The notes: generated from the sequence alone by a model not told the origin. Shown: positions 34,154 to 41,459, counted from the first letter of the stretch. The stretch: DNA of 64,000 nt from Acidobacteriota bacterium (GCA_029263395.1 JAJCXO010000018.1:1-64000), one strand, 5' to 3'. Translations and numbers: made by a program.

Positions 34154-34978
34154 ATGTCAGCCAAGAAAGCTGAGCCCCAGTACGTATTGGGCATCGACAT
34201 CGGCGGCAGTGGCATCAAAGGTGCCCCGGTGGATGTCTGCCAAGGAAGGTTGTTGGCGGATCGGCTGCGCATACCAACCCCCAAGCCGGCCGAACCCGAA
34301 GCGGTTGCCGACGTTGTCAGTCAATTGGTAGACCATTTCGAGTGGTCGGGCCCCATCGGTTGTGCCTTCCCAGCGGTGATCAAAGCCGGAGTGACCGCCA
34401 CCGCCGCCAATATTGATGAAAGCTGGATCGGATTTGACGCCCAGAGCCTGTTCGAAAGCCGAACCAACTGCCCGGTCTCACTGACCAACGATGCGGATGC
34501 TGCGGGAGTCGCTGAAATGCTGTTCGGGGCCGGACGAGGCCATTCCGGACTGGTCATCCTGCTGACCCTTGGCACCGGTATCGGTAGTGCAATCTTCATC
34601 GACGGCCATCTCGTTCCCAACACCGAACTCGGTCACCTCATCATCCGCGGCAAGAAGGCTGAACATCGCGCCTCGGCTCGAGTCCGAACCGAAAATGATT
34701 GGAGCTGGCAGCAGTGGGCTCGCCGGCTCGACGAAGTATTGTGCAACGTCGCCGCGCTCCTCAATCCTGACCTCTTCATCCTCGGTGGCGGCGTCAGTAA
34801 GAAGCACGCCAAGTATCTCCCCTACCTGACAATGGACGTACCGGTTGTACCCGCCGAGCTGAAAAATAACGCAGGTATAGTCGGCGCGGCGCTCGCCTGC
34901 CCGAGCTTCACAAATTCGGGTCCGGGAGACCAGAAAACAACGGCGCGTCAAACCCTGCTGCAGGCTGTACCGAGCTGA
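34154..34978 (+). CDS. ROK-family glucokinase (polyphosphate-glucokinase-like)
   Basis: The 274-residue protein starts [18 protein letters not shown] (phosphate-1), followed by [18 protein letters not shown] and [20 protein letters not shown], and ends with [10 protein letters not shown]. The fold and length match polyphosphate/ATP glucokinases of the ROK family, which phosphorylate glucose after import. The promoter carries the LacI-type operator, linking it to the glycan locus 11 kb upstream. The Shine-Dalgarno is weak. A small monosaccharide other than glucose cannot be excluded. Confidence 0.88.
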
Positions 34979-34989
34979 GAAGCCAAGGC

Positions 34990-36393
34990 TCAGCCTTGAC
35001 CGACCGGAAGCCGCACTGAAAAAGCCGTCCGACCAGGTTCCGACTCGACGGTGATCTCGCCATCGTGTTGGACGATAATGCGCTGCACGATATCCAGTCC
35101 GAGACCGGTCCCTTCACCGACCGCTTTGGTGGTGTAAAAAGGATCGAAGATACGAGCCTGATGCTCTTCGGAGATGCCGCTGCCGTTGTCGATGACTCGG
35201 ACAAAAGCCGAGCAGCCATCGTGCTCAGTACGGATCTCCAACCTGCCGCCAGGGGCCATGGCGTCGACCGCATTGTCGATCAGGTTGGTCCAGACTTGGT
35301 TGATCTCACTCACCTGGACGGAGACTGCCGGCATCTCCTGAGCGTATTCGCGCTGCAGCTGGACTTCTTTATTCTTGAGCTTGTGCCCCATCATGGTCAG
35401 CGTCGAATCGAGCCCTTGATGAATGTCGGCCGGAGCCTTGTCCGGATTCTGATCCATGTGCGAATAACTCTTGACCGAGCTCACCAACTCGGAGATCCGC
35501 GCTGACGCGGCACTGACTTGCGACAACAACTGACGAGCGGCCAAACCGCTGCCGATCCACGCCAATGCATCAGCCACCGCGGCCTCTGGAAGACAACCGC
35601 AACTGTCACGAACCGCTGTCAACTCGATTCCGGCATCGATAAACGCCTCCGCCAACATCCAGGCATCCTCAACTCCCTGCTCGTCGAGCCAGTCCCCGAG
35701 CTCATCTTCGCGATCACTCCGCTCGAGGGTCGAAAGCTGACCGTCAGTTGCACCAGGCTGCCCCATCTCACGCAGGGACGCGATCGACCGGACCTGTTCG
35801 GGCTCGAGCCGATGCTCGGCCAGTCTCGCCACCAAGGCATTCGAGGTCTGTAACCGTTGTGACAATTCGTCAGCAGCTCGTTGAACCGCCGCCGCTGGAT
35901 TGTTTAGCTCGTGGGACAACCCCGCCGCTAGTTTACCGAGAGCCATCATCTTTTCGCGCTGCTCGGCAATCCGGGTACCTTCGCGAATCCGATCTGAGAG
36001 GATACCGACAAGTCGATAACCCAGCTCTGGAATCTGCTGCAACATATCAGGGAAATCCCGACTCGCGATCCGCAGAACCCGCGTCGGCTCGGTCGCCACC
36101 GTCTTGCCAGTAAACTCGGTCATGCGAGAAAACGGCAGCATGCCCAACACGCCGTTGCGCCACGAGGAGTCGATATTCAAGGTTTGACCGGCGATGTCGA
36201 AATACATCTGCAGCCTCCCCTGGAGCACGACGAACATGGCGTCGGCTGGCTTCCCCGCCGTCCACACCGAACCGCCTTTTTCGAGTTCGAGACAGGTAGC
36301 ATGCTCGATCAGCCACTCCAATTGACAGTCGCTGAGACCCTCGAAGATCTCGTTGTGACGCAGATCCTCAGCACAGACGGCGGACAAGCTCAT
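34990..36393 (-). CDS. Sensor histidine kinase with cyclic-nucleotide-binding domain
   Basis: ATG 36393 with AAAGGAG upstream is preferred over an ATG ten codons earlier. The N-terminus (about 12-125) is a cNMP-binding beta-barrel (IFEGLSDCQLEWLIEHATCL; MFVVLQGRLQMYF). Then come a helical linker and a dimerisation/phosphoacceptor segment with GLSHELNNPAAAV. The HATPase domain has N-box NLIDNAVDAM, DNGSGI and GTGLGLDIVQR. No transmembrane segment, so it is cytosolic. It is divergent from the response regulator fused to a reductase-like protein (195-bp gap), its likely partner. Confidence 0.9.
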   Translation of the reverse strand: MSLSAVCAEDLRHNEIFEGLSDCQLEWLIEHATCLELEKGGSVWTAGKPADAMFVVLQGRLQMYFDIAGQTLNIDSSWRNGVLGMLPFSRMTEFTGKTVATEPTRVLRIASRDFPDMLQQIPELGYRLVGILSDRIREGTRIAEQREKMMALGKLAAGLSHELNNPAAAVQRAADELSQRLQTSNALVARLAEHRLEPEQVRSIASLREMGQPGATDGQLSTLERSDREDELGDWLDEQGVEDAWMLAEAFIDAGIELTAVRDSCGCLPEAAVADALAWIGSGLAARQLLSQVSAASARISELVSSVKSYSHMDQNPDKAPADIHQGLDSTLTMMGHKLKNKEVQLQREYAQEMPAVSVQVSEINQVWTNLIDNAVDAMAPGGRLEIRTEHDGCSAFVRVIDNGSGISEEHQARIFDPFYTTKAVGEGTGLGLDIVQRIIVQHDGEITVESEPGRTAFSVRLPVGQG

Positions 36394-36587
36394 AACACTC
36401 CTTTGCAACTCACGAAGTAGCAATCATCTATCTTGATCGACGGCCAGACCAGCCACAGCTGATTCGATCACTCGAAGCAGATGCCCAAGGGACGCTACAA
36501 TCTCGGCAGGGGTCTGGGCAAGGACCAGCACCTCATCCAAGCTTTCTAAATCAACTTTCAATCTTCCGATAAGGGATTGCACTCTTC

Positions 36588-38246
36588 ATGGCGAAAAAAC
36601 CGACCTTGATGCTTGTCGACGACGATCCCCAAGTCCTCGCGGCAATCCGCCGGGACGTCCGACGCAAGTATCACAAAAACTACCGCGTCATGGGTGCCGA
36701 ATCAGCGGCAGCAGCCTTGGAAGCGCTCGCGGAGCTACAAACTCGTGGCGAACCCGTTGCGATGATGATCTCCGATCAGCGTATGCCAACAATGAATGGC
36801 GTCGATTTCCTTGAAAAAGCGCGTGACTTGCATCCCCAAGCCAAACGATTGTTGCTGACCGCTTATGCCGACACCGAGGTCGCAATCCAGGCGATCAACG
36901 ACGTCAGCCTCGACTATTACCTCATGAAACCGTGGGATCCTCCCGAAGAGAAAATTTATCCGGTGCTCGACGAGTTGCTATTCGATTGGAGGCTCACCTA
37001 TCGCCCCGACTTTCACGGCCTGCGAGTCATCGGCTTCCAATGGTCCCCAAGGTCCCACCGCCTCAAGGACTTCCTCAGTGGCAATCTGGTGCCCTATCGC
37101 TGGCACGATGTCGAGGGCGACGGCGACCAGCTACTGGAGCAACACGGCCTCGATCGTACCGAGCTACCGGCAGTAATCCTGGAAGATGGTACCGTGCTGC
37201 GGAATCCAGAGCTGGCTGAGCTTGCGACTCAGGCTGGCATGCGCTCGAATGCCGTTGCCGAGCTTTATGATGTCGTCATCGTCGGAGCTGGACCGGCGGG
37301 CATGGCAGCAGCCGTTTACGGCGCCTCGGAAGGCTTGCGCACCTTGCTCATCGAGCGCCGCGCACCCGGCGGGCAAGCTGGCACCAGCAGCCGAATCGAA
37401 AACTATCTCGGGTTCCCTACGGGCCTCTCCGGCGCCGACTTGACCCACCGCGCCATCACCCAGGCCAAACGCCTCGGCGCACAGCTCGTGATGCCCCAAG
37501 AAGTGACCCGTATCGAAGTCTCAGGACCGCTCAAGATTTTGTCCTTACGGGACGGTGAACAGATCCGCGCCAAAAGTGTGGTCATCGCCGCTGGTGTCGA
37601 CTACCGCAAGCTCGAAGCCCAAGGCATCGAAAACTTTACCGGTGCCGGCATCTACTACGGTTCGGCTGCCACCGAAGCCCAAGCATGTACTGACGGTGAG
37701 GTCTACATCGTCGGTGGCGGCAACTCCGCCGGCCAGGCAGCGATGCACCTCTCCCGTTTCGCCAAAACGGTCCACATCATCGTACGACGCCCCGACCTGA
37801 TTGCCACCATGTCGACCTACCTGATCCATCAGCTCGAGGCGACGAGCAACATTGTGCTACATGGTCGGACGGTCATCAACGCAGCTGGCGGCAAAAGCCG
37901 TCTAGAGACCGTCGAGCTCACCAACCTCGACACGCAGAAGACGACCGAAGCTCCCGCTACCGCGATGTACATCTTCATCGGCGCCAAGCCTTTCACCGAA
38001 TGGCTAGCAGACCTGTTGATTCTGGAGGATCGTGGTTTTGTTTGCACCGGACTCGACCTCCACAAACACGACAGCTTCAAGACTAGTTGGACACTCGATC
38101 GTGAACCATTCGCTCTCGAATCTTCCCAACCCGGTGTTTTCGCCGCGGGGGATATTCGAGCCGGGGCGATGAATCGTGTCGCCTCGGCAGTTGGTGAAGG
38201 CGCGATGGCCATCAAGATGGTGCACGATTATCTGAGCACCGTCTGA
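36588..38246 (+). CDS. Response regulator fused to Cys-less glutaredoxin/TrxR-like oxidoreductase
   Basis: 552 residues in three parts. Residues 1-125 are a receiver domain with DDD acid pocket, phosphoacceptor Asp in MISDQRMP and Lys in LMKPWDP. Residues about 140-215 look like a thioredoxin/glutaredoxin fold (LRVIGFQWSPRSHRLKDFL; ELPAVILEDGTVLRNPELAE), where the CXXC position reads SPRS. The rest is a thioredoxin-reductase-like FAD/NAD(P) enzyme (VIVGAGPAGMAAAVYGA; GGQAGTSSRIENYLGFP; VYIVGGGNSAGQAAMHLS; GVFAAGDIRAGAMNR). The redox CXXC of TrxR is also absent (GSAATEAQACTDG). It is probably a phosphorylation-controlled flavoprotein, not a disulfide reductase. Confidence 0.92.
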   Translation: MAKKPTLMLVDDDPQVLAAIRRDVRRKYHKNYRVMGAESAAAALEALAELQTRGEPVAMMISDQRMPTMNGVDFLEKARDLHPQAKRLLLTAYADTEVAIQAINDVSLDYYLMKPWDPPEEKIYPVLDELLFDWRLTYRPDFHGLRVIGFQWSPRSHRLKDFLSGNLVPYRWHDVEGDGDQLLEQHGLDRTELPAVILEDGTVLRNPELAELATQAGMRSNAVAELYDVVIVGAGPAGMAAAVYGASEGLRTLLIERRAPGGQAGTSSRIENYLGFPTGLSGADLTHRAITQAKRLGAQLVMPQEVTRIEVSGPLKILSLRDGEQIRAKSVVIAAGVDYRKLEAQGIENFTGAGIYYGSAATEAQACTDGEVYIVGGGNSAGQAAMHLSRFAKTVHIIVRRPDLIATMSTYLIHQLEATSNIVLHGRTVINAAGGKSRLETVELTNLDTQKTTEAPATAMYIFIGAKPFTEWLADLLILEDRGFVCTGLDLHKHDSFKTSWTLDREPFALESSQPGVFAAGDIRAGAMNRVASAVGEGAMAIKMVHDYLSTV

Positions 38247-38254
38247 TTCACGGT

Positions 38255-40357
38255 TCACATCATCTCTTCGTCGACAAAACACCAACCCCACTTCTCCATC
38301 GGCTCCAACGAGCGCATGATCGGATGACCCGAGGCATGGTGATGGGCAGTTGCATGTTTGTGCAGCGAGGTATCACAGCAACCCACATGGCCACAGGTCA
38401 TACAGATGCGAAGATGCACCCAGCTTTCTCCCGCACGTATACACTCCTCACAGCCAGCGGCGCTCGGGAGTACCTTGCGGATCTGGTCGAGGTGGGAACA
38501 CTTCGCATCCGTGGGGACCACAAGCTCAACGTAACAATCGGTGTCGATCCGCCCCGATGCGGCCTCGGCCACCCCCTGTTCGACCGCAACGGCTTCACCA
38601 TCGGCTGCCGGGGTCGGACCATCGAGCTCACCCCGTCGTGCTAGCTCGCGCACGGCTGCGGAGTGTGCGGCAATCTCCTCCGACTCCGCTCCATACAATG
38701 CCAACACATCGGCACAAACCTGCAATGTGCTCTCGAGCTCTTCGGTGACCACCTCGTCGGCTCCGGCGTGGGCGAGGCCAGCGATGTCGACTGGGGAACG
38801 GGTTCGGATAGTGATACGGAGATCCGAATTGAGACTGCGAGCGACGCTGGCGATGCGATGCGCCATTGCCGGTTCGTCGTCGGCGATCACCAGCGCCTTG
38901 GCACGCTCGATGCCAGCGTGCCGTAAGGTCTCCGCCTTGGTCGAGTCGCCGCGCAACGCCGGGATGCCGAGCGCCTCGACTTCGTTGGCGCCGGTCGGGC
39001 TCAACGTGGTGACGATCAACGGGATACCACGCTCCGCAAACACCGGCACCATCCTGCGCGCCCCTTGGGCGTAACCCGAGATGATGACGTGGCCGTCGAG
39101 CTCCGGCACAACCTGCGGAGCGTCGGGCACCATCTCGGCTGCCGCTTTGGCTTTGTCTCGGGCGGTCAGTCGATCCGACAGCTTGGTGCCAAGCCGGGTC
39201 ATAGCCGGTGTTAGCACCATCAGCACCACCGTTGCCGCGATGAAGGTCTGCGAGCCAACTTCCGCCATGCCAGCGGGATAGAGACCAAGCTCACGGCCAG
39301 CGCGCTCCAGCACAAACGAGAATTCCCCAACTTGACCCAGCATCAGCGCCGAGCTGATTACCACCGGCCAGCGGTAACCTAGGACCAACACCGCGACACC
39401 CGTGGTGACGATCTTCAACACCAGCACCGCAGCCAGCGCGGCCAGCACGAGCGGCAAATTCTGAACAAAGAAACTCACGTCGAGCAACATGCCGACAGAG
39501 ACGAAGAAGATCGCACTGAACAAGATCTGCAGCGGCATGATCTCGGCAAAGGCATGGTGACTGAATCGGCTTTCGCTGACCACCAGGCCAGCGAGGAAGG
39601 CCCCCAGGGAAACACTGATCCCCGCCAGGCTAGTCAGGTAAGCCGTACCGAAACAAATCGCGACCACCGTCAGTAGGAAAATCTCCGGCGAACACGTCAG
39701 CGCCACCTTCTCCAGGATCGGCGGCATCAAGCGCCGCGCCAACATCAGCACCACGGCGATGATCAAACCCGCTTGCGCCAACGCCCAGCCGACATCGAGC
39801 GGTGAGCCGCCTTGACCGGCAAGCGCCGGCACCAGCAACACCATGGCGATGATCGCCAGATCCTGAAAAATCAGCAGCCCCAGGCCTACCTGGCCATGAG
39901 GAGCCCCGGTCTCGCCGCGATCCCCGAGCAGTTTGAGCACGATGGCGGTCGAGCTCAGAGCCACTAGGAAACCGGTGAATACTCCAACTTTCCAGTCGAT
40001 TCCAAAGGCCGAAAGCAAAAGTGTGGTGGCCAAGGTCACAAGACCAACCTGGAGCCCGCCGCCACCGAAGATCAGTTTCTTGATCTTGGCCAACTTGTCG
40101 AGGCTGAACTCGATGCCAATGGTGTAGAGCAGCAAGATGACGCCAAGCTCAGCTGCCTCGTTGATCATCTCCAGATTGGTGACCAAGCCGAGGGCGTTGG
40201 GTCCGATCACCACTCCAGTGGCGAGGAAGCCGACAATCGGCACCAGGCCGAGACGGGAACACAGGTAGGCGATCGCTGCGCCAGCGAGAATACACACGGT
40301 CGCTTCCGCCAGAAAATGCGGTGCGGCCGCGGCGAGAATCAATATCTGATCAAGCAT
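38255..40357 (-). CDS. Kef-type cation:proton antiporter with C-terminal UBP zinc finger
   Basis: 700 residues: about 12 membrane helices of the CPA2/KefB family (FLATGVVIGPNALGLV, GLGLLIFQDLAIIAMVLLVP, SVSLGAFLAGLVVSESRFSH), a TrkA-N Rossmann domain (GHVIISGYAQGARRMVPVFA, GDSTKAETLRHAGI), and a C-terminal UBP-type zinc finger with CSHLDQI, CEECIRAGESWVHLRICM, CGHVGCCDTS and HATAHHHASGHPIMRSL. The Cys/His spacing fits the ZnF-UBP fold, which in eukaryotes binds ubiquitin C-termini; its bacterial partner is unknown. It converges with the response regulator/reductase gene, 8 bp apart, and probably belongs to the same K+/electrophile stress circuit. Confidence 0.9.
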   Translation of the reverse strand: MLDQILILAAAAPHFLAEATVCILAGAAIAYLCSRLGLVPIVGFLATGVVIGPNALGLVTNLEMINEAAELGVILLLYTIGIEFSLDKLAKIKKLIFGGGGLQVGLVTLATTLLLSAFGIDWKVGVFTGFLVALSSTAIVLKLLGDRGETGAPHGQVGLGLLIFQDLAIIAMVLLVPALAGQGGSPLDVGWALAQAGLIIAVVLMLARRLMPPILEKVALTCSPEIFLLTVVAICFGTAYLTSLAGISVSLGAFLAGLVVSESRFSHHAFAEIMPLQILFSAIFFVSVGMLLDVSFFVQNLPLVLAALAAVLVLKIVTTGVAVLVLGYRWPVVISSALMLGQVGEFSFVLERAGRELGLYPAGMAEVGSQTFIAATVVLMVLTPAMTRLGTKLSDRLTARDKAKAAAEMVPDAPQVVPELDGHVIISGYAQGARRMVPVFAERGIPLIVTTLSPTGANEVEALGIPALRGDSTKAETLRHAGIERAKALVIADDEPAMAHRIASVARSLNSDLRITIRTRSPVDIAGLAHAGADEVVTEELESTLQVCADVLALYGAESEEIAAHSAAVRELARRGELDGPTPAADGEAVAVEQGVAEAASGRIDTDCYVELVVPTDAKCSHLDQIRKVLPSAAGCEECIRAGESWVHLRICMTCGHVGCCDTSLHKHATAHHHASGHPIMRSLEPMEKWGWCFVDEEMM

Positions 40358-40565
40358 CGAACCTGGAATCCTTCCTCAACGTTTCGGTCTCGACATGTCA
40401 CAGCCTGAAACTCAATCTACGGCAGCCGTTGGCTAATCGATCCGTACCAGACAATCTGGTTCCTTCAACTTCAGATTAGGGGCGTTCTCGCATTCTATCC
40501 GGTGAATCTCTCGTGTCCTGGAGTAGCCTATAGGCCGCTGCCGTTCGGTGCGATACCCTCATCCC

Positions 40566-41459
40566 ATGCTGGGACGCCGGAAGTCTTCCGACATTGAGGA
40601 CGCACTCGCCAAGCTGCAACTCTTCTCGTCGCTGTCAACACAGGATCTCGGCGAGCTCGCCTCCCTATGCCTGCGCAAACAATACGCTGAAGGCGACGAG
40701 ATCCTTGAGCAAGGGAGTACCGGACTCGGTCTCTTTCTGCTGATTTCCGGCCGGGTCGAAGTTTTCAAGGATCGGCAGGGGCACCAGATCCGCTTGGCCG
40801 AATTGGGCAAAGGCGACGTCTTGGGCGAAATTGCCTTGCTCGACCATCAGCCCAGATCAGCCAGCGCAGTCGCCCTCGAAGCCACAGAATGCCTGCTCCT
40901 GACTCGCGATCGATTCCGCTCGCTGCTGGAGCGACGACCGCGGATCGCTTGGGCGCTTGTCCCTGGGCTCACCCAGCAGATCCGAGATTTGCAAGATCAG
41001 TTGCTGACATCGGACGAACGTGCCGCCAAACGATCCCAGCGGCCCTCGGCGACCACTGCCCCACAAGCCCAGACACAGCACACCCGGCCCGAACCGACCA
41101 CAGCGGCAACACCGCCGTCCGATGGTGGAAGTTGCACCGCGACACAAGCTGGGGCAACCACCGAGTCGACCCATGACCACACCCCAACACCAACCTTGCT
41201 ACAAGCGCAGACCGCGCTGCTGATGACCGGTGCCGTCGGCGTCGTCGAATCGGCCCGCCTGCTCGAGACTTTCCTGCGCGCCTTCGAAACCAACGCCGGG
41301 ATCCTGCGCAAACGGCCATGGCTCGACACCGTCCGGGACCTGCCGGCAAGCTTAATGGGAGCTTCGCTGAGCACGTGGCACGGGGGATCTAGAATCCCCG
41401 GCAAGATGCTCGACGTCTTGCAGCAGCAGTTGCGCCCTACCTCCGAGGCCGACGTCTAG
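40566..41459 (+). CDS. Cyclic-nucleotide-binding-domain protein
   Basis: Residues about 15-130 form a cNMP-binding beta-barrel (LQLFSSLSTQDLGELASLCL; GLFLLISGRVEVFKDRQGHQ; GDVLGEIALLDHQPRSASA). Then follows a long Thr/Pro/Gln-rich linker (about 60 residues) and a C-terminal helical region (ALLMTGAVGVVESARLLETF). There is no DNA-binding HTH, so it is a sensor or adaptor, not a CRP-type regulator. The start is uncertain: ATG 40566 or GTG 40548. It abuts the SRPBCC gene (TAG directly followed by ATG). Confidence 0.78.
   Translation: MLGRRKSSDIEDALAKLQLFSSLSTQDLGELASLCLRKQYAEGDEILEQGSTGLGLFLLISGRVEVFKDRQGHQIRLAELGKGDVLGEIALLDHQPRSASAVALEATECLLLTRDRFRSLLERRPRIAWALVPGLTQQIRDLQDQLLTSDERAAKRSQRPSATTAPQAQTQHTRPEPTTAATPPSDGGSCTATQAGATTESTHDHTPTPTLLQAQTALLMTGAVGVVESARLLETFLRAFETNAGILRKRPWLDTVRDLPASLMGASLSTWHGGSRIPGKMLDVLQQQLRPTSEADV

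Follow-up and report, generated by a model that had tools for sequence, protein, structure and literature searches.

Three genes occupy positions 34990 to 40357 of the window, the 64,000-nucleotide stretch of Acidobacteriota DNA analysed here, as confirmed by ORF calling and Pfam searches. A sensor histidine kinase of 477 aa is encoded at 34990..36423 on the minus strand, from a TTG start with an alternative ATG at 36393. A response regulator of 552 aa follows at 36588..38246 on the plus strand, assigned from its ORF, Pfam matches, an alignment and a structure model. The third gene, at 38255..40357 on the minus strand, encodes a CPA2 (Kef-type) K+/H+ antiporter of 700 aa with a KTN/RCK domain and a C-terminal UBP zinc finger (Pfam and tree), hereafter Kef-UBP. 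The kinase and regulator genes diverge across 164 bp from the TTG or 194 bp from the ATG, and the regulator and Kef-UBP genes lie tail to tail, 8 bp apart; a preliminary description, which gave this divergent and convergent layout with gaps of 195 and 8 bp, was thus accurate. Beyond Kef-UBP and divergent from it, a possible fourth component, a CNB-domain protein (Pfam 81.3 bits), is encoded at 40548..41459 on the plus strand. It carries the canonical cNMP-binding motif, GEIALLDHQPRSASA, which is missing from the kinase. A gene of this kind occupies the corresponding position in G311, a genome of the same genus, and no counterpart was found adjoining the other Kef-UBP genes.

The regulator has lost both cysteine pairs

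The regulator comprises a receiver, a glutaredoxin-like domain and a thioredoxin-reductase (TrxR)-like flavoprotein, with Pfam matches to Response_reg (59.8 bits) and Pyr_redox_2 (110.3 bits). The receiver (36609..36944, plus strand, from Pfam) is intact, with residues D11/D12, D63, T91 and K114 that are kept in 48 of 49 aligned relatives. The middle domain (37014..37235, plus strand), which had previously gone unnamed, is predicted to fold as β-α-β-α-β-β-α and matches a mycoredoxin model (E = 3e-4). Its likeness to glutaredoxin and mycoredoxin is one of fold only, with SPRS at the position of the active-site CPxC. The FAD/NAD(P)H module (37263..38243, plus strand) keeps the FAD and NAD(P)H glycine motifs GAGPAG and GGGNSAG, and has YGSAATEA at the position of CATC. 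In a structure model of the regulator (pLDDT 87), residues 225–552 superpose on 4up3 with a Z score of 34.0 and an rmsd of 1.9 Å over 304 residues at 27% identity; matches to the TrxR module filled the fold-search list.

Across the 49 aligned relatives, which span many phyla, neither domain retains its cysteine pair in a single case: the reductase module reads YYG(A)A.TEA where CxxC would stand, and the glutaredoxin-like domain reads WSP.S in place of CPxC/CxxC. The earlier label of the regulator as Cys-less is therefore right at the active site. As the redox-active CxxC is missing, we do not file the protein as a thioredoxin reductase and, judged from its sequence, it is not a working one. 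A paralogue in the window's genome, a glutaredoxin-TrxR fusion, keeps both pairs (WCGDC and CATC), suggesting that the regulator probably descends from a thiol reductase. The regulator shares its fold and FAD/NAD(P)H modules with low-Mr thioredoxin reductases (Z 34), and AhpF likewise has a thioredoxin-fold domain ahead of its TrxR module; the regulator differs from both in having an N-terminal receiver and no CxxC in either domain.

Regulators of the REC-TrxB, or REC-thioredoxin-reductase, type are catalogued in surveys (PMC5847659, PMC9739842, PMC9953108). Among them is SCO7298 of Streptomyces coelicolor, classed as TrxB-type and partnered by kinase SCO7297. These regulators (SCO7298; the 'Mycobacterium-like' type) resemble ours in the receiver-TrxR fusion and the adjoining kinase gene. 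The surveys, as far as consulted, give architecture only, and none of the literature found describes the cysteine loss, the glutaredoxin-like domain, the UBP neighbour or a link to Kef-UBP. On acid shock, SCO7298 is strongly up and trxB (SCO3890) down (PMC2631018), and SCO7298, named trxB3, is also induced by sulfane sulfur (PMC9952706). The Streptomyces relatives in our aligned set, from which SCO7298 itself is absent, lack both cysteine pairs.

The kinase retains a degenerate CNB domain

The kinase is cytosolic, with an N-terminal CNB fold followed by a HATPase domain (Pfam cNMP_binding 34.9 bits, HATPase_c 93.4 bits, HisKA sub-threshold). Its H-box reads SHELNNP, and the phospho-acceptor His and N-box Asn are present in all 107 aligned kinases, the window's included. 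The CNB domain, residues 46–130 by Pfam (36034..36288, minus strand), has a degenerate phosphate-binding cassette (GMLPFSRMTEFTGKTVATE). In CNB domains, a Glu and an Arg of this cassette hold the ligand. Both are missing from the kinase (GMLPFSRMTEFTGKTVA); its motif, GMLPFSRM...TGKTVA, does not contain the GE..R that characterises real binders. A cassette like that of true binders occurs in two of the 107 related kinases, L200 and L234, among which an LP[FY]SR motif is common, and in a few kinases adjoining such regulators a PAS-like segment replaces the CNB domain altogether. On these residues, the domain probably no longer binds cyclic nucleotide. The preliminary description had the kinase sensing such a ligand, a step left unsupported by a cassette that lacks the ligand-binding Glu and Arg; cNMP sensing could come from the neighbour at 40548..41459, given its motif.

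Kinase and regulator form a widespread pair

Kinase genes accompany these regulators in many genomes. In the phylum sample, a kinase lies within 1.3 kb and on the same strand for 33 of 34 full-length regulators, the lone exception (L096) having a degenerate receiver. The window pair is transcribed divergently, an arrangement shared with G312, a genome of the same family. Among 80 named loci from many phyla, a non-random sample of the best-scoring hits of a pattern scan, 63 have a kinase gene at most 1.3 kb from the regulator and 67 have one at most 9 kb away; several of the loci with no kinase nearby are near contig ends or in cyanobacteria. Kinase and regulator thus belong together, and their genes constitute a genuine, widespread two-component system, one that is largely unstudied.

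UBP fingers recur beside such regulators

Apart from the zinc finger of Kef-UBP (38258..38500, minus strand; Pfam zf-UBP 39.3 bits, cutoff 22.7), the window's genome yielded no zf-UBP. The finger bears the bacterial signature C..C..WVHLR.C.TCGHVGCCD.S..KHA..H and matches the solved bacterial protein 2ida over 80 residues (E = 7e-36), and its zinc-ligand Cys and His residues are conserved across aligned Kef-UBPs. Bacterial UBP proteins such as 2ida (~90–120 aa) are free, whereas this finger forms the C-terminal domain of an antiporter. Aligned by eye, CCD of the bacterial finger falls where the ubiquitin-tail-binding GRY of eukaryotic fingers would stand, making classic C-terminus binding doubtful. 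We considered whether the regulator's C-terminal tail could serve the finger as a ubiquitin-like ligand and rejected the idea: the tail, VHxYL and a few further residues, is alike with or without a UBP neighbour and so carries no ligand signature.

Of the 80 best-scoring, non-randomly sampled named loci, 20 have a UBP gene no more than 4 kb from the regulator, where UBP gene density leads us to expect well under one. The earlier remark that UBP fingers stand beside such regulators thus describes a recurrent arrangement. The usual UBP partner of the pair is a separate protein of ~90 aa, and gene order differs by phylum: kinase (HK), regulator (RR), UBP in Bacteroidota; RR-HK-UBP in Streptomyces and Tsukamurella; UBP-HK-RR in Balneola. 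Annotated plasmids place a 'UBP-type zinc finger domain-containing protein' immediately after the kinase, and in two Streptomyces stretches a UBP gene adjoins the regulator without a kinase. UBP genes also adjoin other TrxR-like proteins, such as a CNB-TrxR fusion, and one lies immediately before a related CNB-type flavoprotein on an annotated plasmid. The CNB-domain thioredoxin-disulfide reductase (its PGAP name) of Streptomyces angustmyceticus plasmid p1 has the same Cys-less TrxR-like module and a UBP neighbour; it differs from the regulator in that a CNB input replaces the receiver, and no partner kinase was seen.

The association extends to whole genomes. Across 297 genomes of the phylum, a TrxR-like protein is present in 42 of 62 UBP-positive versus 10 of 235 UBP-negative genomes, an odds ratio of 47 by genome (p = 3e-26) and 10 by family (p = 5e-5), family being the furthest level at which phylogeny was corrected. 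A UBP finger occurs somewhere in 37 of 50 named regulator-bearing genomes, compared with 62 of the 297 in the phylum sample. UBP fingers are also fused to LtrA and DAC domains, so the finger may have other partners.

Kef-UBP lacks most glutathione contacts of KefC

Kef-UBP has the membrane domain and KTN/RCK domain of CPA2 Kef proteins (Pfam Na_H_Exchanger 168.7, TrkA_N 57.8 and zf-UBP 39.3 bits; KefC match, E = 1e-55). Its score of 291.6 does not reach the KefC equivalog cutoff of 752, and the Kef-UBPs form a clade apart from ordinary Kef proteins with 100/100 support. A structure model of the protein was set aside for its low confidence (pLDDT 54). The KTN (RCK/TrkA_N) domain was placed at 38744..39088 (minus strand) by alignment to 8bxg and among Kef-UBPs.

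In KefC, the RCK domain, together with AMP and glutathione, keeps the antiporter closed, and full activity requires the flavoprotein KefF (PMC2920069, PMC11150392). Of the KefC residues R409, Q412, R416, R498 and R516, whose roles have been described (PMC11150392), four of the five glutathione contacts are replaced in Kef-UBP (R409Q, Q412R, R416P and R516T) and R498 is kept. The nucleotide-binding acid after the second strand is a Thr within a conserved TLSP.GA. Given the replaced contacts, glutathione gating of Kef-UBP is unlikely.

Kef-UBP is linked to the pair in two lineages

Kef-UBP was found in five of 149 genomes of the window's class, and in all five its gene is linked to a kinase or regulator gene. 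In the window, a leftward HK and a rightward RR are followed by a leftward Kef-UBP. G311 has the same convergent RR-Kef junction on a contig that ends inside the regulator. G238 has RR-HK-Kef in one run, G310 has HK-Kef and a regulator that lies terminally on a separate contig, and G342 has Kef-HK at one contig end and HK-RR at another, giving Kef-HK-RR. There are thus three gene orders, and contig breaks in G311, G310 and G342 mean that the full triple is inferred in those three. The contig ends of G342 and G310 share no exact overlap of at least 15 bases. The G342 kinase halves read through the break (..LMADRI / RIREG..), and the G310 junction is consistent with a triple.

In the Kef-UBP tree, as in that of the regulator, the window and G311 are set apart from G238, G310 and G342, with unlinked lineages in between on well-supported branches. 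The window's regulator falls in a Bacteroidota-type clade, and the others fall outside it. Linkage therefore arose at least twice or was lost several times; two origins are the simplest reading of these trees, the alternative being one origin followed by losses or replacement. As the antiporter seems to have been attached to such pairs on two or more occasions, it is probably their target.

The preliminary description had made a single module of the three genes, to be judged by a neighbourhood survey, and its fortunes are divided. The pair is conserved, and every Kef-UBP found in the class is linked to it. Overall, however, Kef genes seldom stand beside the regulator (one of 34 phylum-sample loci and none of 80 named loci), and Kef-UBP also occurs with no pair within 6–8 kb in four family-f31 genomes and two Deinococcus plasmids. 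In at least three of the f31 Kef-UBP genomes, no TrxR-like protein was matched at E 1e-30. The pair is thus not needed for all Kef-UBPs.

Discussion

We propose, tentatively and with slightly more doubt than belief, that the three genes form one functional module: under the kinase's control, the flavoprotein would dock on the UBP finger and thereby gate the antiporter. The kinase would respond to a signal through its CNB-fold domain and phosphorylate the regulator's receiver. The regulator, a presumed former glutaredoxin-thioredoxin-reductase with both Cys pairs lost and the FAD and NAD(P)H sites kept, would now be a phosphorylation- and redox-responsive binding protein instead of a thiol reductase. 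Its partner would be a UBP zinc finger, here the tail of a Kef antiporter, hanging on a probably flexible linker. Docking on the tethered finger could either move the KTN domain away from the transporter or bring the two together, and gate K+/H+ exchange in that way, similar to the action of the FMN protein KefF on KefC; phosphorylation would set when docking occurs. The analysis shows the domain architectures, the missing catalytic residues, and a gene linkage present in two separate lineages; we infer the phosphotransfer, flavin binding, docking and gating, and likewise its direction.

If glutathione gating is unlikely, the adjoining flavoprotein is the simplest replacement, and protein docking would take the place of glutathione adducts. 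KefC-KefF offers the closest parallel: there, too, a soluble flavoprotein binds the cytosolic part of a CPA2 antiporter with a KTN/RCK domain and raises its activity (PMC2920069, PMC11150392). Kef-UBP differs in its added finger and its replaced glutathione contacts, and KefF has an FMN quinone-reductase fold whereas the window's flavoprotein is FAD/TrxR-like with a receiver. The acid-shock link of SCO7298 would suit a proton-coupled antiporter output without proving one.

It is possible, if on balance doubtful, that the pair and Kef-UBP merely share a response to acid, electrophile or redox stress and are co-inherited with no contact, the regulator acting elsewhere, perhaps as a flavin reductase that depends on NAD(P)H. 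Most pairs have no Kef adjoining, Kef-UBP exists without the pair, and the induction of SCO7298 by acid shock and sulfane sulfur (PMC2631018, PMC9952706) looks like general stress. Such sharing fits poorly with the co-occurrence of UBP and TrxR-like proteins, genome-wide and as neighbours, even where Kef is absent, and linkage of Kef in two lineages and three gene orders exceeds what stress alone leads one to expect. A finger that works by itself on Kef as a zinc, redox or C-terminus sensor, with the flavoprotein regulating other UBP proteins or none, is improbable: some f31 genomes with no detectable TrxR-like partner and the fusions to LtrA and DAC speak for it, but UBP fingers accompany TrxR-like flavoproteins much more frequently than would be expected, and CCD in place of GRY makes C-terminus binding questionable. 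A circuit opened by cyclic nucleotide at the kinase is very improbable, since its 34.9-bit Pfam match, and a neighbour whose canonical motif could supply the sensing, stand against a cassette without Glu and Arg, both present only in L200 and L234 among 107 kinases, and the PAS-like segments that some kinases beside such regulators carry instead.

Our preferred reading, docking of the flavoprotein on the finger, could be widened to a class of ion antiporters gated by a phosphorylation-controlled, catalytically retired thioredoxin-reductase flavoprotein, with UBP as a general bacterial docking tag for such flavoproteins that also serves LtrA- and diadenylate-cyclase-like proteins; this wider form is rather unlikely. 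The idea of a module emerges strengthened, with the cyclic-nucleotide step removed from the circuit and docking as its conjectural part. REC-TrxB regulators were known before; of their linkage to UBP and to Kef-UBP we found no description in the open-access literature.

One member of this pair is annotated as a thioredoxin reductase (SCO7298 is trxB3; PMC9952706), and every aligned relative lacks the cysteines needed for that activity. Kef-UBP gives the pair a candidate output, K+/H+ exchange, and a candidate binding site, the UBP finger. If the proposal is true, bacterial UBP fingers would gain a function, and Kef-type antiporters would have a glutathione-free route to gating, relevant to bacteria without glutathione.

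Origin of the regulator

The window regulator (36588-38246) has a paralogue in its own genome, a glutaredoxin-TrxR fusion (L161:8001-9164; G000:C213), which is likely a relative of the regulator's ancestor. Both cysteine pairs are intact in this fusion. The window regulator groups with Bacteroidota regulators, at about 60% identity, and apart from the regulator of a same-family genome (G310), with which it shares 54% identity; this grouping suggests horizontal transfer.

Gene neighbourhood

On the kinase side, a polyphosphate-glucose phosphotransferase gene (34154-34978, + strand; NCBIfam NF045942, 353 bits against a cutoff of 250) is convergent with the kinase gene. At five other loci (L082, L224, L262, L263 and L264), the kinase next to such a regulator carries a PAS-like segment where the CNB domain would otherwise be. 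Beyond Kef-UBP, and divergent from it across 190 bp, lies a gene for a CNB-domain protein with a canonical cyclic-nucleotide motif (40548-41459, + strand), followed by two SRPBCC genes. The same arrangement of CNB-domain, Kef-UBP and SRPBCC genes occurs in a genome of the same genus (G311, L249).

UBP fingers in other contexts

Streptomyces genomes (L274 and L275) carry an additional REC-Grx-TrxR regulator with a UBP gene immediately ahead of it, and no kinase was detected within the few kilobases around each. Elsewhere, a UBP gene adjoins an ordinary thioredoxin reductase with CATC (L113:933-2236). An LtrA membrane protein (278 bits) bears a C-terminal UBP finger (L141:6771-8195, + strand), and on a Deinococcus aetherius plasmid (L244) an LtrA gene lies close to the kinase-regulator pair. 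Lastly, a UBP finger is fused to a diadenylate cyclase-like DAC domain (DisA_N; L129:7920-8927, + strand), which keeps the DGA motif and has RHL in place of RHR. In other bacteria c-di-AMP acts as a regulator of K+ transport, so this fusion may represent a second link between UBP fingers and K+.
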